In this document: piece after piece, positions 19,815-37,802 of the stretch
How the letters are laid out: every line of letters starts with the position of its first letter
Numbering within the stretch: the stretch's first letter is position 1
Assembly (NCBI RefSeq): GCF_000381825.1
Contig: NZ_KB907121.1
Span: 20,001 to 84,000, forward strand
Direction: 5' to 3'
Length of the DNA: 64,000 bases
From: Thioalkalivibrio sp. ALJT
GTDB lineage: Bacteria > Pseudomonadota > Gammaproteobacteria > Ectothiorhodospirales > Ectothiorhodospiraceae
Made by a program: the position numbers and the translations under genes
Notes under the pieces: model-generated
Told to the model about the DNA's origin: nothing
What the model saw: only the letters and a program-made list of their open reading frames with translations
Database searches by the model: none

Positions 19815-20596
19815 TGCACATCCTCCCCGGCTTCCATCGCCTCCAGCGCCTCCAGCTCGTCGAGTTCGTCCAGCATCTCGCTGGCACGCTCGTCGCTGGA
19901 GCCCCGCACGAGGAAGTCGCGGCGCTGTAACCAGGCCTCGCGCATCGCGATGTAGGGGTCGTCCGACAGCTGTTCCAGCATGCGTTCGGTGGAGATCAGA
20001 CCGGCACGCATGTCGATGATGTCCAGCGCAATCAGTCCGACCCACCAGCTGCTGTGATCCTGGCGCAGGTTGCTCTGATAGAGCGGATCGGTGTAACCGT
20101 CGACGATCCGCGCAGGGGCATCGCGCGCGGTACTCGGCCCGAGCAGCGGCAACTGCAGGTAGGGCCCACGAGGTACACCCCAGACACCGAGGGTCTGACC
20201 GAAGTCCTCGTTGTTCTTCTCCAGCCCCATCGGCGAGGCGACATCAATCAGACCGAACAGCCCGAAGGTGCTGTTGAACAGTATACGGCCGGTATCCGAT
20301 GCGGCATTCTCGAGGTTGCCCTGCAACAGATTGTTGAACAACACGGTGAAGTCGTTCAGGTTCGAGAAGAAATTACCGACCCCCGTCTGCACCGTATCCG
20401 GAACACGCTGATACTGCACTGCTGCCGGACGCAGCAACGACTCGTCGAAATCCTGGTTGATCTCGAATACGGCACGGTTGTAGGACTCCCAGGGATCATC
20501 CGGGTGACGGTCCTCGCTGGGCACCGTTGCGCAACCGGTCAGGAAAAGAAGGGCCGTGGCCAGCAGGCCCGTTCGCAAGCGGGAGACAATAGACAT
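19811..20596 (-). CDS. mlaA: MlaA (VacJ) outer-membrane phospholipid-transport lipoprotein
   Basis: Takes misplaced phospholipids from the outer leaflet and hands them to the Mla pathway. The 261-aa precursor has a lipoprotein signal with lipobox LTGC (cysteine about residue 22), then DDPWESYNRAVFEINQDFD, VPDTVQTGVGNFFSNLND and DFGQTLGVWGVPRGPYLQLP, all VacJ signatures. The C-terminus is acidic and helical (EMLDELDELEALEAME). It is the first of a chain of overlapping genes, mlaA-membrane protein-mpl-ubiX-LON. No mlaFEDCB is visible here. Confidence 0.93.
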   Translation of the reverse strand: MSIVSRLRTGLLATALLFLTGCATVPSEDRHPDDPWESYNRAVFEINQDFDESLLRPAAVQYQRVPDTVQTGVGNFFSNLNDFTVLFNNLLQGNLENAASDTGRILFNSTFGLFGLIDVASPMGLEKNNEDFGQTLGVWGVPRGPYLQLPLLGPSTARDAPARIVDGYTDPLYQSNLRQDHSSWWVGLIALDIIDMRAGLISTERMLEQLSDDPYIAMREAWLQRRDFLVRGSSDERASEMLDELDELEALEAMEAGEDVQ

Positions 20597-28447: not shown

Positions 28448-31111
28448 TCAGGCCTGCAACGGGTTGGGCCGTTCGACGTCGATCGCATACTTCTCGATCG
28501 CGTCAGCCACAGTCTTGACCTCCACGGTCCCGGCATCGGCCAGGGCCTTCAGCGCCGCGACCGCGATGTGGAAGCGATCGACCTCGAAGTGCCGACGCAG
28601 CGCAGCGCGGGTATCGGAACGGCTGAAGCCGTCCGTCCCCAGCACACGGTAGTCCGCCGGCACGAAGGCACGGATCTGATCGGCATAACCCTTCACATAG
28701 TCGGTCGCGGCAATCACCGGATCGTCCGAACCACCCAGGCATTCCTCCACCCAGGACGTGCGCGGTTTGGCCTCCGGATGCAGGCGCGCATGGCGCTCGG
28801 CATCGCGGCCATCACGGGCCAGCTCGTTGAAGCTGGTCGCACTCCAGACCTCGGCAGCGACGCCGAAGTCCTGATCCAGCAGTTCGGCGGCGGCAATGGC
28901 CTCGCGCAGGATGGTGCCGGAGCCCAGCAGGCGTACCTTCTTTTTCTTGCGTCCGCCGGCCTGCAGCCGGTACAGGCCGCGACGGATACCTTCCTCCGCG
29001 CCCTTCGGCATGGCTGGCTGCGGGTAGTTCTCGTTCATCACGGTGATGTAGTAGAAGACGCTTTGCTGCTCCGCATACATGCGGCGCATGCCGTCCTGCA
29101 CAATCACCGCCAGTTCATAGGCGAAGGTCGGATCGTAGGCGATGCAGTTGGGCACGTTGGCGGCCATCATCAGGCTGTGGCCATCATCGTGCTGCAGGCC
29201 CTCACCCGCCAGCGTGGTACGCCCGGCGGTGGCCCCCATCAGGAAGCCGCGGGCGCGCATGTCGCCGGCGGCCCAGATCAAGTCGCCGATGCGCTGGAAG
29301 CCGAACATCGAATAGAAGATGTAGAACGGCACCATCGCCACACCGTGCGTGGAGTACGACGTGGCCGCCGCAATCCAGGAGGACATGGAACCGGCCTCGT
29401 TGATCCCCTCTTCCAGGATCTGGCCCTTCTTGTCCTCCTTGTAATACATCACCTGGTCCCTGTCCTGCGGCTCGTAGAGCTGGCCGACCGAGGAGTAAAT
29501 CCCCAGCTGACGGAACAGCCCTTCCATGCCGAAGGTCCGCGCCTCGTCGGGCACAATCGGGACGATGTTCTTGCCGATCTTCTTGTCCCGCGCGAGCAGG
29601 GTCAGCAGGCGCACGAAGGCCATGGTGGTGGACATCTCGCGCTCACCGGAGGACTCCAGCAGGCTGTTGAAGGCCTCCAGCCCCGGGATCTCCAGCGGTG
29701 TGGCCAGCGGGCGACGCACCGGCAGGTAGCCGCCGAGGTCCTTGCGCCGCTCGTGCATGTACTTCATCTCTTCGGATTCGGGGTCCGGCTTAATGTACTC
29801 GGCACGCTCCACCTGCTCGTCGGAAAGCGGGATATTGAAGCGGTCCCGGAACTGCTTCATGTCGTCCGCGTCCATCTTCTTCTGGCTGTGGGTACGGTTC
29901 TGGGCCTCGCCTGCGGACCCCATGCCATACCCCTTCACCGTGTGCGCGAGGATCACGGTCGGCTGCCCCTTGTGCTCGGCCGCTGCCTTGTAGGCCGCAT
30001 AGACCTTGACCGGGTCATGGCCGCCGCGGTTGAGGCGCCAGATGTCCTCGTCGGACATGTTGGCCACCATCGCCTTCAGCTCGGGGTACTTGCCGAAGAA
30101 GTGCTCGCGCACATAGGCACCGTCATTCGCCTTGTAATTCTGGAAATCGCCGTCGACCGCCTCCATCATGCGCTTCTGCAGCAGGCCGTCGGTGTCCTTC
30201 GCCAGCAGCGGATCCCAGTAGCGACCCCACAGCACCTTGACCACGTTCCAGCCCGCGCCGCGGAAGATCGCCTCCAGCTCCTGCACAATCTTGCCATTGC
30301 CGCGCACCGGGCCATCCAGGCGCTGCAGGTTGCAGTTGACCACCCAGGTCAGGTTGTCCAGCTTCTCCCGCGAGGCCAGGGTGATCGCCCCCAGGGTCTC
30401 CGGCTCGTCCACCTCACCGTCGCCGACAAAGCTCCAGACGCGACGGTTCTCGGTCTGTGCCAGGCCACGATCCTGCAGATAACGCATAAAACGCGCCTGG
30501 TAGATGCTCATGATCGGGCCCAGCCCCATGGACACGGTCGGGAACTGCCAGAAGTCCGGCATCAGCCAGGGATGCGGATAGGACGACAGGCCCTTGCCGT
30601 CGACCTCGCGGCGGAAGTGGTCCAGTTGTTCCTCGCTCAGGCGGCCTTCCATGAACGCACGGGCGTAGATACCCGGCGAGGAGTGACCCTGGGCGAACAG
30701 CAGATCGCCACCATGATCATGCGACGGGGCATGCCAGAAATGGTTGAACCCGACGTCATAAAGAGTGGCAGCGGAGGCAAAAGTCGCAATATGCCCCCCC
30801 AGCTCGGCCGAGGCGCGGTTGGCCTTGACCACCATCGCCATCGCATTCCAGCGGATATAGGACCGGATGCGATGCTCCACCGCACCATCGCCCGGATACT
30901 CCGGCTCCAGGTGCGTGGGGATGGTGTTCACATAAGCGGTATTGGCGGAGTACGGCAGATAGGCCCCGCTGCGCCGCGCCTTGTCCACCAGCCGTTCCAG
31001 CAGGGCATGTGCCCGCTCGGGGCCGTCGGTCTCCAGCACCGAGGCCAGGGCGTCAATCCACTCCTGGGTCTCCTGCGGGTCGATGTCGTGTTCGGTCGCG
31101 TTCGGGTCCAT
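28448..31111 (-). CDS. aceE: Pyruvate dehydrogenase E1 component (homodimeric type)
   Basis: The thiamine-diphosphate enzyme that decarboxylates pyruvate and acetylates the lipoyl groups of E2. The 887-aa protein matches the E. coli-type homodimeric E1. The TPP-binding motif WSFVGDGEVDEPETLGAI and downstream NCNLQRLDGPVRGNGK are present, as are HDDGHSLMMA and the C-terminal VLGTDGFSRSDTR. ATG 31111 begins MDPNATEHDIDPQETQEW. It is the first gene of the PDH operon, divergent from rnt across a 296-bp gap that holds a promoter candidate. Confidence 0.97.
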   Translation of the reverse strand: MDPNATEHDIDPQETQEWIDALASVLETDGPERAHALLERLVDKARRSGAYLPYSANTAYVNTIPTHLEPEYPGDGAVEHRIRSYIRWNAMAMVVKANRASAELGGHIATFASAATLYDVGFNHFWHAPSHDHGGDLLFAQGHSSPGIYARAFMEGRLSEEQLDHFRREVDGKGLSSYPHPWLMPDFWQFPTVSMGLGPIMSIYQARFMRYLQDRGLAQTENRRVWSFVGDGEVDEPETLGAITLASREKLDNLTWVVNCNLQRLDGPVRGNGKIVQELEAIFRGAGWNVVKVLWGRYWDPLLAKDTDGLLQKRMMEAVDGDFQNYKANDGAYVREHFFGKYPELKAMVANMSDEDIWRLNRGGHDPVKVYAAYKAAAEHKGQPTVILAHTVKGYGMGSAGEAQNRTHSQKKMDADDMKQFRDRFNIPLSDEQVERAEYIKPDPESEEMKYMHERRKDLGGYLPVRRPLATPLEIPGLEAFNSLLESSGEREMSTTMAFVRLLTLLARDKKIGKNIVPIVPDEARTFGMEGLFRQLGIYSSVGQLYEPQDRDQVMYYKEDKKGQILEEGINEAGSMSSWIAAATSYSTHGVAMVPFYIFYSMFGFQRIGDLIWAAGDMRARGFLMGATAGRTTLAGEGLQHDDGHSLMMAANVPNCIAYDPTFAYELAVIVQDGMRRMYAEQQSVFYYITVMNENYPQPAMPKGAEEGIRRGLYRLQAGGRKKKKVRLLGSGTILREAIAAAELLDQDFGVAAEVWSATSFNELARDGRDAERHARLHPEAKPRTSWVEECLGGSDDPVIAATDYVKGYADQIRAFVPADYRVLGTDGFSRSDTRAALRRHFEVDRFHIAVAALKALADAGTVEVKTVADAIEKYAIDVERPNPLQA

Positions 31112-31224
31112 GCGTCTACCCCTGAAAACGGGTTGGGAATCAGGATGCCATCTTGGGTTCCAGGCCACCGGGCAGGCAGGCTTTTGCTACCATGCGCCGA
31201 TGTCAGGCGGGCATAAAGGACGCA

Positions 31225-31254
31225 AGTATCCCGACTGTGCCGGCAACAGGTCAA
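31225..31254 (-). promoter_or_regulatory. Candidate sigma70 promoter for aceE
   Basis: On the minus strand TTGACC (31249-31254) and GATACT (31225-31230) are separated by 18 bp, giving a 5' leader of about 105 nt before the aceE ATG. No palindrome like the PdhR operator is evident. The rest of the 296-bp aceE/rnt gap is AT-richer around 31290-31330 (including TACAAT on the minus strand), and I see no other feature there. Confidence 0.4.
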
Positions 31255-31407
31255 GCGAACGCCATGTATGGCGCCGATCGTCGGCAAAAAACGCGACAAA
31301 ATCTCCAAACATCCGTAAATTGTACACGCGGGCGCACGCCCGGGAGACACCCTTCCCGGCCACCGCGCCCGCGAACCGTAACGGCTTACCCGCAACCGAG
31401 TACCCCG

Positions 31408-35230: not shown

Positions 35231-36169
35231 TCAGTCCATGAACAGCGAGCTGACGGATTCCTCGCGATTGATACGGCGGATCGTCTCCGCCAGCATCTCT
35301 GCGACCGACAGTTGCCGAATCTTCTCGCAACCCAGCGCATTGGGCTGCAGCGCCAGCGTGTCCGTGACCACCAGCTCGTCAAGCGCAGAACCGTTTATGT
35401 TATCAATTGCCGCCCCGGAAAGCACGGGATGCGTGGCATAGGCCATTACCGAGTGCGCCCCGTGGTTCTTCAGGGCCTTCGCCGCCTGGCACAGGGTACC
35501 GGCGGTATCCACCAGGTCATCGATGATGATGCAGGACTTGCCCCGCACATCACCGATGATGTGCATCACCTCGGACTCGTTCGCCCGCGGGCGGCGCTTG
35601 TCGATAATGGCCAGATCGGCATCGTCCAGACGCTTGGCGATCGCCCGCGCACGCACCACCCCGCCGACATCCGGCGACACCACAGTCAGATCCCCGGAGA
35701 CATGCCGCCAGACATCGCCCAGCAGCACCGGCGAGGCGTAGATGTTATCCACCGGGACATTGAAAAAGCCCTGCACCTGGTCGGCGTGCACATCGATGGT
35801 CAACACGCGATCTGCGCCCACCGCCTCGATCATGTTCGCGACCACCTTGGCCGAGATCGGCACGCGCGCAGAGCGTACCCGGCGATCCTGGCGGGCGTAG
35901 CCGAAGTACGGGATCACCGTGGTGATCCGCCCGGCGGAGGCGCGCCGCAGCGCATCCACCATAATCACCAGCTCCATGATGTTCTCGTTGGTCGGCTGCC
36001 CGGTCGGCTGAATCAGGAAGACGTCTCGACCGCGGACGTTCTCCAGGATCTCGACCTGCACCTCGCCGTCACTGAAACGGCCCACGGTTGCCTTGCCCAT
36101 CGGCAGGCCCAGGTGTTCGGCAACGCTCTGCGCCAGACGCGGGTTGGCATTACCCGCGAAGATCATCAT
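35231..36169 (-). CDS. prs: Ribose-phosphate pyrophosphokinase
   Basis: Makes PRPP for nucleotide, NAD, His and Trp synthesis. The 312-aa protein has [33 protein letters not shown] (ATP site), [13 protein letters not shown] and the PRPP loop [16 protein letters not shown] 36169 (MMIFAGN) is chosen; a GTG six codons upstream (36187) is possible because the SD is weak for both. It lies downstream of tRNA-Gln in the conserved ispE-tRNA-prs order. Confidence 0.95.
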
Positions 36170-36249
36170 ACGACTCTTGTCGACCACGGTTCGTCCCGGT
36201 CTGGATGGATATGGAGCGGACGGCTTTGTCGCGCAGGCCCCAAAGTATA

Positions 36250-36306
36250 GACCCCGGCGCGGGGCCGGGGTCCTGGTAGCCGGTGACCCGCGCACACGGC
36301 GCGGGT
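36250..36306 (-). terminator. Two hairpins after tRNA-Gln
   Basis: Downstream of the tRNA on the minus strand, ACCCGCGC/GCGCGGGT (36286-36306) is followed by GACCCCGG/CCGGGGTC (36250-36272) and then TATACTTT. The second hairpin with its short U/A run could terminate the tRNA transcript. The TATACT also looks like a -10 for prs. Confidence 0.5.
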
Positions 36307-36315
36307 TTCGTTGTA

Positions 36316-36390
36316 TGGCTGGGCCGGCAGGATTCGAACCTGCGCATGGCGGGATCAAAACCCGCTGCCTTACCGCTTGGCTACGGCCCA
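36316..36390 (-). tRNA. tRNA-Gln (anticodon TTG)
   Basis: A 75-nt gene read on the minus strand. The acceptor stem TGGGCCG pairs with CGGCCCA, with an encoded CCA end. The anticodon stem-loop GCGGG-TTTTGAT-CCCGC gives anticodon TTG (UUG), which reads CAA and by wobble CAG. The T arm GCAGGTTCGAATCCTGC is intact. It lies between ispE and prs, a position also known for tRNA-Gln in Pseudomonas. TACAAT (36411-36416) lies 20 nt upstream as a likely -10; no clear -35 is seen. Confidence 0.95.
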
Positions 36391-36610
36391 ATGTCTCGCT
36401 TAACTTTCAAATTGTACTGTCAGCGCCGGACTCGTACCCGAGCTTACCGCGGACCGGCGGGGCCGATCCGGGCCGGCAGGATGATGGCGCTGCGCGCCAC
36501 CCTTACGGGCCGTCACCTTCGGCGACGATCGGTCGCGGCTGCGCCGCTCGCGTCGAACCTCGCGCTTGGCGGGATCAAAACCCGCTGCCTTACCGCCTGG
36601 CGACGGCCCA
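36391..36610 (-). pseudogene. Tandem unit 1: promoter region plus split tRNA-Gln copy
   Basis: A 220-bp direct repeat unit upstream of the real tRNA. It holds a tRNA-Gln copy read on the minus strand. The 5' part (36553-36609) runs from GGGCCGTCGCC through the same TTTTGAT anticodon loop to GGTTCGA. A 70-nt insert (36483-36552) then interrupts the T loop, after which ATCCTGCCGGCCC (36470-36482) resumes. The encoded CCA is lost. The insert is GC-rich with small stems (GGCGC-GCA-GCGCC). A TACAAT box precedes the true tRNA from within this unit. Confidence 0.75.
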
Positions 36611-36829
36611 ATGTCTCGCTTAACTTTCAAATTGTACTGTCAGCGCCGGACTCGTACCCGAGCTTACCGCAGACCGGCGGGGCCGATCCGGGCCGGCAGG
36701 ATGATGGCGCTGCGCGCCACCCTTACGGGCCGTCACCTTCGGCGACAATCGGTCGCGGCTGCGCCGCTCGCGTCGAACCTCGCGCTTGGCGGGATCAAAA
36801 CCCGCTGCCTTACCGCCTGGCGACGGCCC
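36611..36829 (-). pseudogene. Tandem unit 2: second split tRNA-Gln copy
   Basis: Nearly identical to unit 1, with only a few substitutions visible (for example CGCGGACC against CGCAGACC), so the duplication is recent or maintained. The tRNA-like 5' part is 36773-36829, the 70-nt insert 36703-36772 and the 3' part 36690-36702. The first base of the acceptor stem is lost here. TACAAT boxes occur at 36631-36636 and at 36848-36853, about 20 nt before unit 1's copy and this one. The rest of the gap up to ispE (36830-36923) shows nothing else. Confidence 0.75.
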
Positions 36830-36923
36830 GGGAACACGCTGAGGTCTATTGTACTGCCTGACCGACACGACGCCCGAAACCCCACCACCGTCATTGCGAT
36901 CGGCACACTGGCCAGCGCAAATC

Positions 36924-37802
36924 TTACGCCCCCGGAGAGACGGCAGGCGGAAGCCAGGCCTGCAGCGGCGAGACGTTGAGCAACGGCGTCACCCAGCTCG
37001 CCCAGGCCTCGGGCTGACTGGATTGCGCCTGCTGCGCCGCCGCCTGATCGGGAAATATCCCGAACACGCATCCGCCACTGCCGCTCAGGCGGGCGCTCGG
37101 CGTCTCGGATGCCAGCCAGGCCAGGGCCCGGTCGACCTCGGGGTACCGCGCTCGCACAACCGGCTCGAACACGTTGCCGAAGCGTCCGGCATCGAATTCG
37201 GACGAAATTGTCTCGGTGGGACAGTCCCGTGTCAATTCCGCCGCGCCGAACATCGCACCTGTGGTCACGCTGACACCGGGATCGATCAGGAGGACCCAGC
37301 CCTGACCCGGGGCCACCGGCGTCAGACGCTCCCCGACTCCTTCGGCCCAGGCGGCGCATCCGGCAACAAATACGGGTACGTCCGCGCCGAGCTCCAGCCC
37401 CAGCGCCGCGAGGCGGTCCACCGGCTGGCCCAGTCCGAACAGGTGATTCAGCGCGACCAGGGTGGTTGCGGCATCGGAGCTGCCTCCGCCCAGGCCACCA
37501 CCGACCGGAATGTGCTTGTCCAGGTGGATGCGCACGCCAAAGTCCCTGGCCGCCTCGGCCGCCAGGCGACGCGCAGCGCGCAGACAGAGGTTGTCGGCCC
37601 CATCGATGGCCGCGCCGGCCATCTCGTAACGGCCTGCAGGCAGGGGCTCAAAACGCAACTGGTCCGCCAGCCCGAGAAACTGGAAGACCGTCTGCAGCTC
37701 ATGATAGCCATCGGCCCGGCGCCCGGTAACGTGCAGGAAGCGGTTAATCTTGGCGGGGGCCGGGAAGACGCTGTCGAACCCGCCGTCTGCGCGTATGCTC
37801 AC
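36924..37802 (-). CDS. ispE: 4-diphosphocytidyl-2-C-methyl-D-erythritol kinase
   Basis: The ATP-dependent fourth step of the MEP isoprenoid pathway. The 292-aa GHMP kinase has the N-terminal PAPAKINRFLHVTGRRADGYHEL-type motif (about 15-37), the ATP loop PVGGGLGGGSSDAATTL and the C-terminal LSGSGGCVFGIF. Its start overlaps the lolB stop by 4 nt. The lolB-ispE-tRNA-prs order is conserved with Pseudomonas. Confidence 0.96.
   Translation of the reverse strand: MSIRADGGFDSVFPAPAKINRFLHVTGRRADGYHELQTVFQFLGLADQLRFEPLPAGRYEMAGAAIDGADNLCLRAARRLAAEAARDFGVRIHLDKHIPVGGGLGGGSSDAATTLVALNHLFGLGQPVDRLAALGLELGADVPVFVAGCAAWAEGVGERLTPVAPGQGWVLLIDPGVSVTTGAMFGAAELTRDCPTETISSEFDAGRFGNVFEPVVRARYPEVDRALAWLASETPSARLSGSGGCVFGIFPDQAAAQQAQSSQPEAWASWVTPLLNVSPLQAWLPPAVSPGA

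Follow-up and report, generated by a model that had tools for sequence, protein, structure and literature searches.

RtT-type cores as probable insertion cassettes: two split tRNA-Gln copies in Thioalkalivibrio sp. ALJT

Why should two nearly identical tRNA-Gln copies, each interrupted in its T loop at the same point, stand in tandem just upstream of an intact gene of the same kind? The question is raised by a locus of Thioalkalivibrio sp. ALJT (assembly of 2.66 Mb in 21 contigs), whose nearest named relatives in a comparison of IspE include the Thioalkalivibrio strains AKL19, ALE31, ALJ3 and ALMg11. The window, as we call the whole stretch of 64,000 nucleotides that was analysed, covers positions 20001–84000 of contig 1; all coordinates below are those of the window unless another contig or locus is named.

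The split tRNA-Gln locus

The locus occupies the minus strand between two genes that, from their translations, we take to be ispE and prs, and comprises two split units followed by the intact tRNA-Gln(TTG) at 36316–36390. The units, 36611–36830 and 36391–36610, differ at 3 of 220 positions, in agreement with the preliminary description of two near-identical 220-bp direct repeats upstream of the intact gene; a repeat finder gives 98% identity in a slightly shifted register. When the two units were used as a query against the whole assembly at E 0.001, they matched themselves and the intact tRNA-Gln and nothing else. Each unit consists of 57 nt of tRNA-Gln through GGTTCGA (36773–36829 in copy 1 and 36553–36609 in copy 2, delimited by sequence and repeat comparison), a 70-nt insert (36703–36772 and 36483–36552), the 3' strand of the T stem and acceptor, ATCCTGCCGGCCC (36690–36702 and 36470–36482), and, in the place of CCA, an 8-pair hairpin that directly adjoins the acceptor strand (36671–36689 and 36451–36469). 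The split point is GGTTCGA^ATCC in both copies and the anticodon arm is intact, and the interruption by 70 nt with resumption of the acceptor side, as first described, matches in its coordinates in both. Compared with the intact tRNA, the split copies diverge in the D loop, ahead of it and at the base of the T stem.

Set against a functional tRNA, which has a complete cloverleaf, an uninterrupted T loop and CCA, the split copies fall short through the insert and the missing CCA. At this locus ARAGORN and Rfam, the latter at its gathering threshold, leave them uncalled and call the intact tRNA alone (66.8 bits in Rfam). The sequence TACAAT, previously noted upstream of all three genes, is present on the minus strand at 36848–36853 (copy 1), 36631–36636 (copy 2) and 36411–36416 (intact tRNA) as a possible −10 box; a sigma-70 scan of 36150–37000 found no promoter-like site, the three boxes included. 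Single-sequence folding of the split units is unexceptional (z −1.6 and −1.1), and the structural case rests on the comparison of relatives.

Elsewhere on the minus strand of the window, an aceE-II RNA motif (RF04317, 204 bits) was seen at 31103–31293, where an aceE-like gene begins.

The insert and RtT RNA

The insert is an RtT-type core. The RtT family model RF00391 matches core 2 with 31.6 bits over 36465–36601 and core 1 with 28.0 bits over 36685–36821, both below the gathering score of 45. The window copies resemble RtT RNA (rttR of the E. coli tyrT locus) in a core that runs from GGTTCGA, through hairpins round CCCGnAGGG, to ATCC and a tRNA 3' end. They differ from it in keeping the full tRNA 5' part, the body of the tRNA itself occupying the place of the complementary, inverted 5' arm, and in sitting upstream of an intact tRNA, without CCA and below the family cut-off. 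R1, a model restricted to the core and trained on 30 tRNA-adjacent cores, none of them from a Gln-TTG split copy and one (L207) from a Ser-TGA split copy, gives 45.5 bits for core 2 and 41.8 bits for core 1; it has no more than 9 pairs and works largely as a profile of sequence, because the RNAalifold structure missed hairpin 1, which MAFFT had not aligned. The Gln-TTG split cores end in ATC, the usual end of an RtT core being GTA. A tandem GA motif in RtT is noted in part of PMC7657543.

Related inserts do occur in other genomes, contrary to one outcome envisaged in the preliminary description. R1 finds the core in 30/30 genomes of the genus at E 0.001 (33 matches in G010, 34 in G003 and 30 in G024) and in 26/114 sampled genomes of the class at E 1e-5. 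With RF00391, 23 of the 30 genus genomes, the window genome not among them, have a match over the cut-off and 26 have one at E 0.01, while a class-wide sample of 369 genomes yields 66 at E 0.001 and 23 over the cut-off. E. coli K-12 carries four RF00391 units of 133–138 bits at tyrT/tyrV, one of them between two tRNA genes.

The surroundings of these units were examined for 86 RF00391 matches, 80 of them from other genomes, out of a longer list, and six from the window genome. Sixty follow a tRNA or tmRNA gene of the same strand at a distance of at most 120 nt (four overlap its end), 17 have no upstream tRNA in the fetched stretch and 9 are farther away; the last two groups include orphans and split copies as well as later copies in tandem and matches at contig ends. 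The host genes are tRNAs for Gln, Ser, Tyr, Arg and Glu, and tmRNA. An exact 13-nt copy of the 3' half of the host's own tRNA follows the core in 51/60 units, the 3' halves of other tRNA kinds matching these units at no more than 11/13 positions. From the 60 units 55 could be extracted (5 dropped), and 44 of these had a recognisable 5' arm (11 dropped); 263 outer pairs join this arm to the tRNA-derived 3' end, whereas permutation yields 189 on average (sd 7), and 0 of 5000 permutations reached the observed value. The exact own-tRNA 3' halves and the pairing of the arms thus indicate that the core is common whereas the flanks follow the host tRNA. At one locus (L077), a tmRNA gene is followed after 30 nt by a unit that bears an exact copy of the tmRNA 3' half.

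Split copies, interrupted repeats and a probable insertion cassette

Core-split tRNA copies are found well beyond the window. Two scans combined give 19 distinct copies, of Gln-TTG and Ser-TGA, and all 19 lie upstream of an intact tRNA of their own kind. The first scan covered 178 units and flagged 26 rows, in eight of which the upstream sequence was the intact tRNA itself, leaving 18; the second covered 163 units and flagged 21 rows, three of which overlapped the intact tRNA, again leaving 18, with L207 added and L007 missed. Identical copies were counted once, which leaves L010, and two copies out of three in L112, outside the 19. The two split kinds occur in Thioalkalivibrio and again in another family (G157), and homologous inserts at the identical Gln-TTG point are present in 10 loci of the genus. 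In a third family (L065), a Ser-GCT copy upstream of the intact Ser-GCT has cores in both its T loop and its D loop, with a one-base difference to the right of the D-loop core. The window genome holds a second split locus, a Ser-TGA copy with a changed variable arm (L046, contig 10:35603–35701), whose core is shortened to 40 nt; that of the relatives G002, G004 and G009 measures 74 nt. In G004, a truncated second Ser-TGA copy was seen upstream of the full one (L207, 2030–2120), with core, tRNA 3' part and hairpin kept and the tRNA 5' part gone.

The core also interrupts sequences other than tRNAs. It lies inside CCCTCTCCCGC palindromic hairpins at 5 or 6 of nine loci in one reading and at 12 in another, the right flank of this host not being an exact match to the uninterrupted repeat; the second reading of non-tRNA loci covered 20 fetched loci, two of which gave no output. 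Five further loci, and one in the window genome, have the core inside GTCATTGCGAG-type repeats. In the class sample a core was readable at 24 of 28 loci; at five of the 24, in other families, the fetched stretch lacks a tRNA on the strand of the core (at one of them a tRNA-Phe lies on the opposite strand), and a GTCATTCCGG repeat houses one class-sample core. Near gatY, cvpA and rbfA of E. coli, where part of PMC2965389 suggests dispersed cores, R1 detected none in three 25-kb regions at up to E 1. At L333, a core without a tRNA lies in a stretch that by eye appears open in one frame, possibly an in-frame insertion; the open-frame test raised no flag there.

The GTCATTGCGAG repeat, which we take to be a MITE, offers the closest comparison of occupied and unoccupied sites. 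A survey of six genomes gave 74 matches, from which 30 loci with 31 distinct ends were fetched. A core of 60–62 nt fills six ends, exactly at GAAGCA^; the other 25 lack one at this point, six of them having a core in the opposite-facing end. Five of the 6 filled ends have GAAGCA^A flanks that show no duplication, the right flank of L407 being different. One precise point in sequence that is otherwise alike thus either has the core or lacks it, as expected of a mobile element, and this is what insertion predicts; the filled and empty states, read from static genomes, may also reflect loss of the core from filled ends.

Comparison of these loci suggests that RtT cores are probably short non-autonomous insertion cassettes and that one such cassette came to lie in a spare tRNA-Gln of the window genome, the resulting unit being later duplicated and homogenised. 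The cassette would be about 60–80 nt long, with four hairpins and no evident target duplication, its mobility being something we infer from comparison. Entry would occur between two A's at sites resembling A^A[TC]C, within a hairpin or next to one (for example TTCGA^ATCC, CTGA^A and GAAGCA^A[TC]C), T loops being a favoured case. In the window, the core would have entered the upstream, spare tRNA-Gln, which could be interrupted because the downstream gene stayed intact, and the unit would then have been duplicated. Gene conversion with the intact gene may keep the tRNA part of the split units fresh, and in the RtT repeats downstream of tRNAs an inverted copy of the tRNA 3' half would enclose this same core. 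The ATC end of the Gln-split cores, in place of GTA, is not explained by this account. Further points against it are the scores of the window copies below the RF00391 cut-off, the inexact right flanks of the CCCTCTCCCGC host, of L407 and of the D-loop copy, and a search of Y1-transposase loci that tied no transposase to the core.

Recent duplication and a tRNA-targeting element, offered as alternatives in the preliminary description, are therein supported jointly. Tandem duplication and homogenisation account for the near identity of the two units; the RtT-type core is found in T loops, in one D loop and in non-tRNA repeats as well. A transcribed decoy or small RNA, the third alternative offered there, would fit the structure maintained in several species, and fits less well with the loss or truncation of the split copy in some close relatives.

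The proposed cassette shares features with several known systems. Like REP/BIME elements and other non-autonomous palindromic repeats (REPs with their RAYT transposases, IS200/IS605 derivatives), the core is short, hairpin-rich, non-coding and nested in palindromes. It differs from them in its four hairpins without a GTAG or CGTC tag at the end, in its A^A target with no duplication seen, and in the lack of a convincing core beside 25 Y1-transposase loci. These 25, fetched out of 40 matches, were searched with R1, the best match having 13.7 bits and E 0.22; Y1 transposase matches are present in 11 of 12 genomes searched, and G049 has the core and no Y1 match. REPs inserted in palindromes are described in part of PMC3733652, and rtT-like sequences among BIMEs are reported in part of PMC2965389. 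With bacterial MITEs the core has in common that it is dispersed and present or absent in otherwise alike sequence; it differs from them in having no long terminal inverted repeats, in leaving no target-site duplication at 5 of the 6 filled ends, and in itself sitting inside the GTCATTGCGAG repeat. Rickettsia RPE and similar inserts, RPE being mentioned in the same part of PMC3733652, are likewise small palindromic inserts at a precise point, but the targets of the core are tRNA loops and repeats, and no insertion in a known protein gene has been established. The part of PMC2267715 consulted makes no mention of RtT.

RtT, described as a by-product of tRNA operons, is thus recast here, with its core as a likely insertion cassette, and a cassette with host-matching flanks would explain why related repeats end in different tRNA 3' ends. 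We propose more tentatively, as a conjecture that we ourselves hold to be somewhat less probable than its negation, that RtT, instead of being first of all a tRNA-operon RNA, is the tRNA-nested form of a new mobile hairpin cassette, which would enter A^A[TC]C sites within hairpins or next to them, tRNA T and D loops included, and leave no target duplication, and that the split chimera has in addition been kept as an RNA gene. A search of open-licence papers, covering titles and the starts of abstracts, returned none on RtT as an insertion cassette or on core-split tRNAs. The locus offers a testable case of a mobile element caught in tRNA loops together with split tRNAs that preserve structure.

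Conservation of the split copies and competing explanations

Whether the split copies are decaying or maintained was assessed in a full-length alignment of 14 Gln-TTG split copies from 10 loci of the genus, forming 13 distinct rows. Nine helices with 46 pairs, from the cloverleaf, the core (four hairpins) and the 3' hairpin, are 99.3% paired over the 13 distinct rows; the stem of the 3' hairpin is paired in 14/14 aligned copies and its loop is variable. The insert, for which small stems of its own had been noted, has four hairpins whose pairing is kept in the aligned relatives. Pairs changed on both sides number 2 of 46, without excess over shuffles; the cells with both-side changes (11) and the covariation score exceed 500 of 500 shuffles, an excess that kinship of the sequences can yield without structure. 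Of the core columns, 5/40 paired ones vary vs 11/29 unpaired ones (Fisher p 0.02). Among five genomes of clade B, the tRNA part has a pairwise identity of 0.95, the core 0.89 and the spacer 0.72; the 30 nt that precede the intact tRNA have 0.65 and four-fold sites of ispE 0.60, the synonymous-site comparison being of clade B values only. The core and its structure are thus better kept than a purely neutral insert predicts, which counts against the cassette reading.

Maintenance of the tRNA part has a further aspect. At 9 of the 10 loci a clade-specific pair in the anticodon stem is common to the split and intact tRNAs, which points to gene conversion; in the exception, L003, the intact anticodon stem is unlike that of both split copies.

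This conservation bears most directly on the best-surviving alternative, namely that the split copy is an exapted RNA gene, with promoter, tRNA body, T-loop core and a 3' hairpin for CCA, serving as a tRNA mimic or as a leader in the transcript of tRNA-Gln. The nine nearly fully paired helices, the lower variability of paired core columns and the excess of core identity over the four-fold sites of ispE all argue for it, as does the recurrence of the hairpin adjoining the acceptor strand, which by eye is present at Gln-TTG and Ser-TGA copies in Thioalkalivibrio and at both G157 loci. RtT RNAs are moreover expressed in Actinobacillus (part of PMC4986893), and release of an RNA from the tRNA transcript is described for E. 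coli. Against it, the split copy is absent from the relatives L013 and L015 and reduced to a remnant in L012, the Ser-TGA split core of the window genome is down to 40 nt, and L065 is without the acceptor 3' strand and hairpin; the both-side changes are as frequent as in shuffles, and gene conversion could maintain the tRNA part. We regard an RNA gene as an unlikely, though possible, alternative.

In L012, where the split tRNA has been lost, its 3' hairpin survives beside ispE with a compensating base-pair change; this hairpin is perhaps a terminator.

That the units are ordinary tRNA pseudogenes in decay, their GC-rich hairpins being unremarkable and their likeness due to recent duplication alone, would fit the 3 differences in 220 positions, the unexceptional single-sequence folding and the loss of the copy in some relatives. 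It is contradicted by homologous inserts that occupy one and the same point at 10 loci of the genus and recur in other families, by conservation above that of synonymous sites and by the kept pairing, and on these comparisons the reading appears largely refuted; we give it very little weight.

Equally improbable is a relic att site, in which an integrated element used the T loop of tRNA-Gln and left tandem copies of the 3' end. Integrases often target T loops, and downstream duplicates of tRNA 3' ends do occur; the repeated item, however, is a structured core of about 60–80 nt found at tRNAs, at a tmRNA and in non-tRNA repeats, and this reading was rejected as the main one on account of the tmRNA and non-tRNA occurrences.

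An intron excised to yield a working tRNA-Gln, for which the exact insertion point and flanks that join as a normal T loop would speak, is the least credible reading and was rejected: Rfam found no intron family match in 36100–37000 at up to E 5, the copies lack CCA, carry the adjoining hairpin and stand beside an intact tRNA, and cores of this kind also split non-tRNA repeats. A permuted tRNA was rejected since the halves are in normal order.

The probable insertion of a cassette into spare tRNA copies also touches on annotation. ARAGORN reports core-split copies as tRNA-Gln in L003, L004, L005, L006, L008, L009, L010 and L011, and the Rfam tRNA model gives the split copies of L004 30–35 bits, above its cut-off. 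Standard tools thus call some split copies tRNAs, a warning that tRNA annotation counts in the genus may be inflated.
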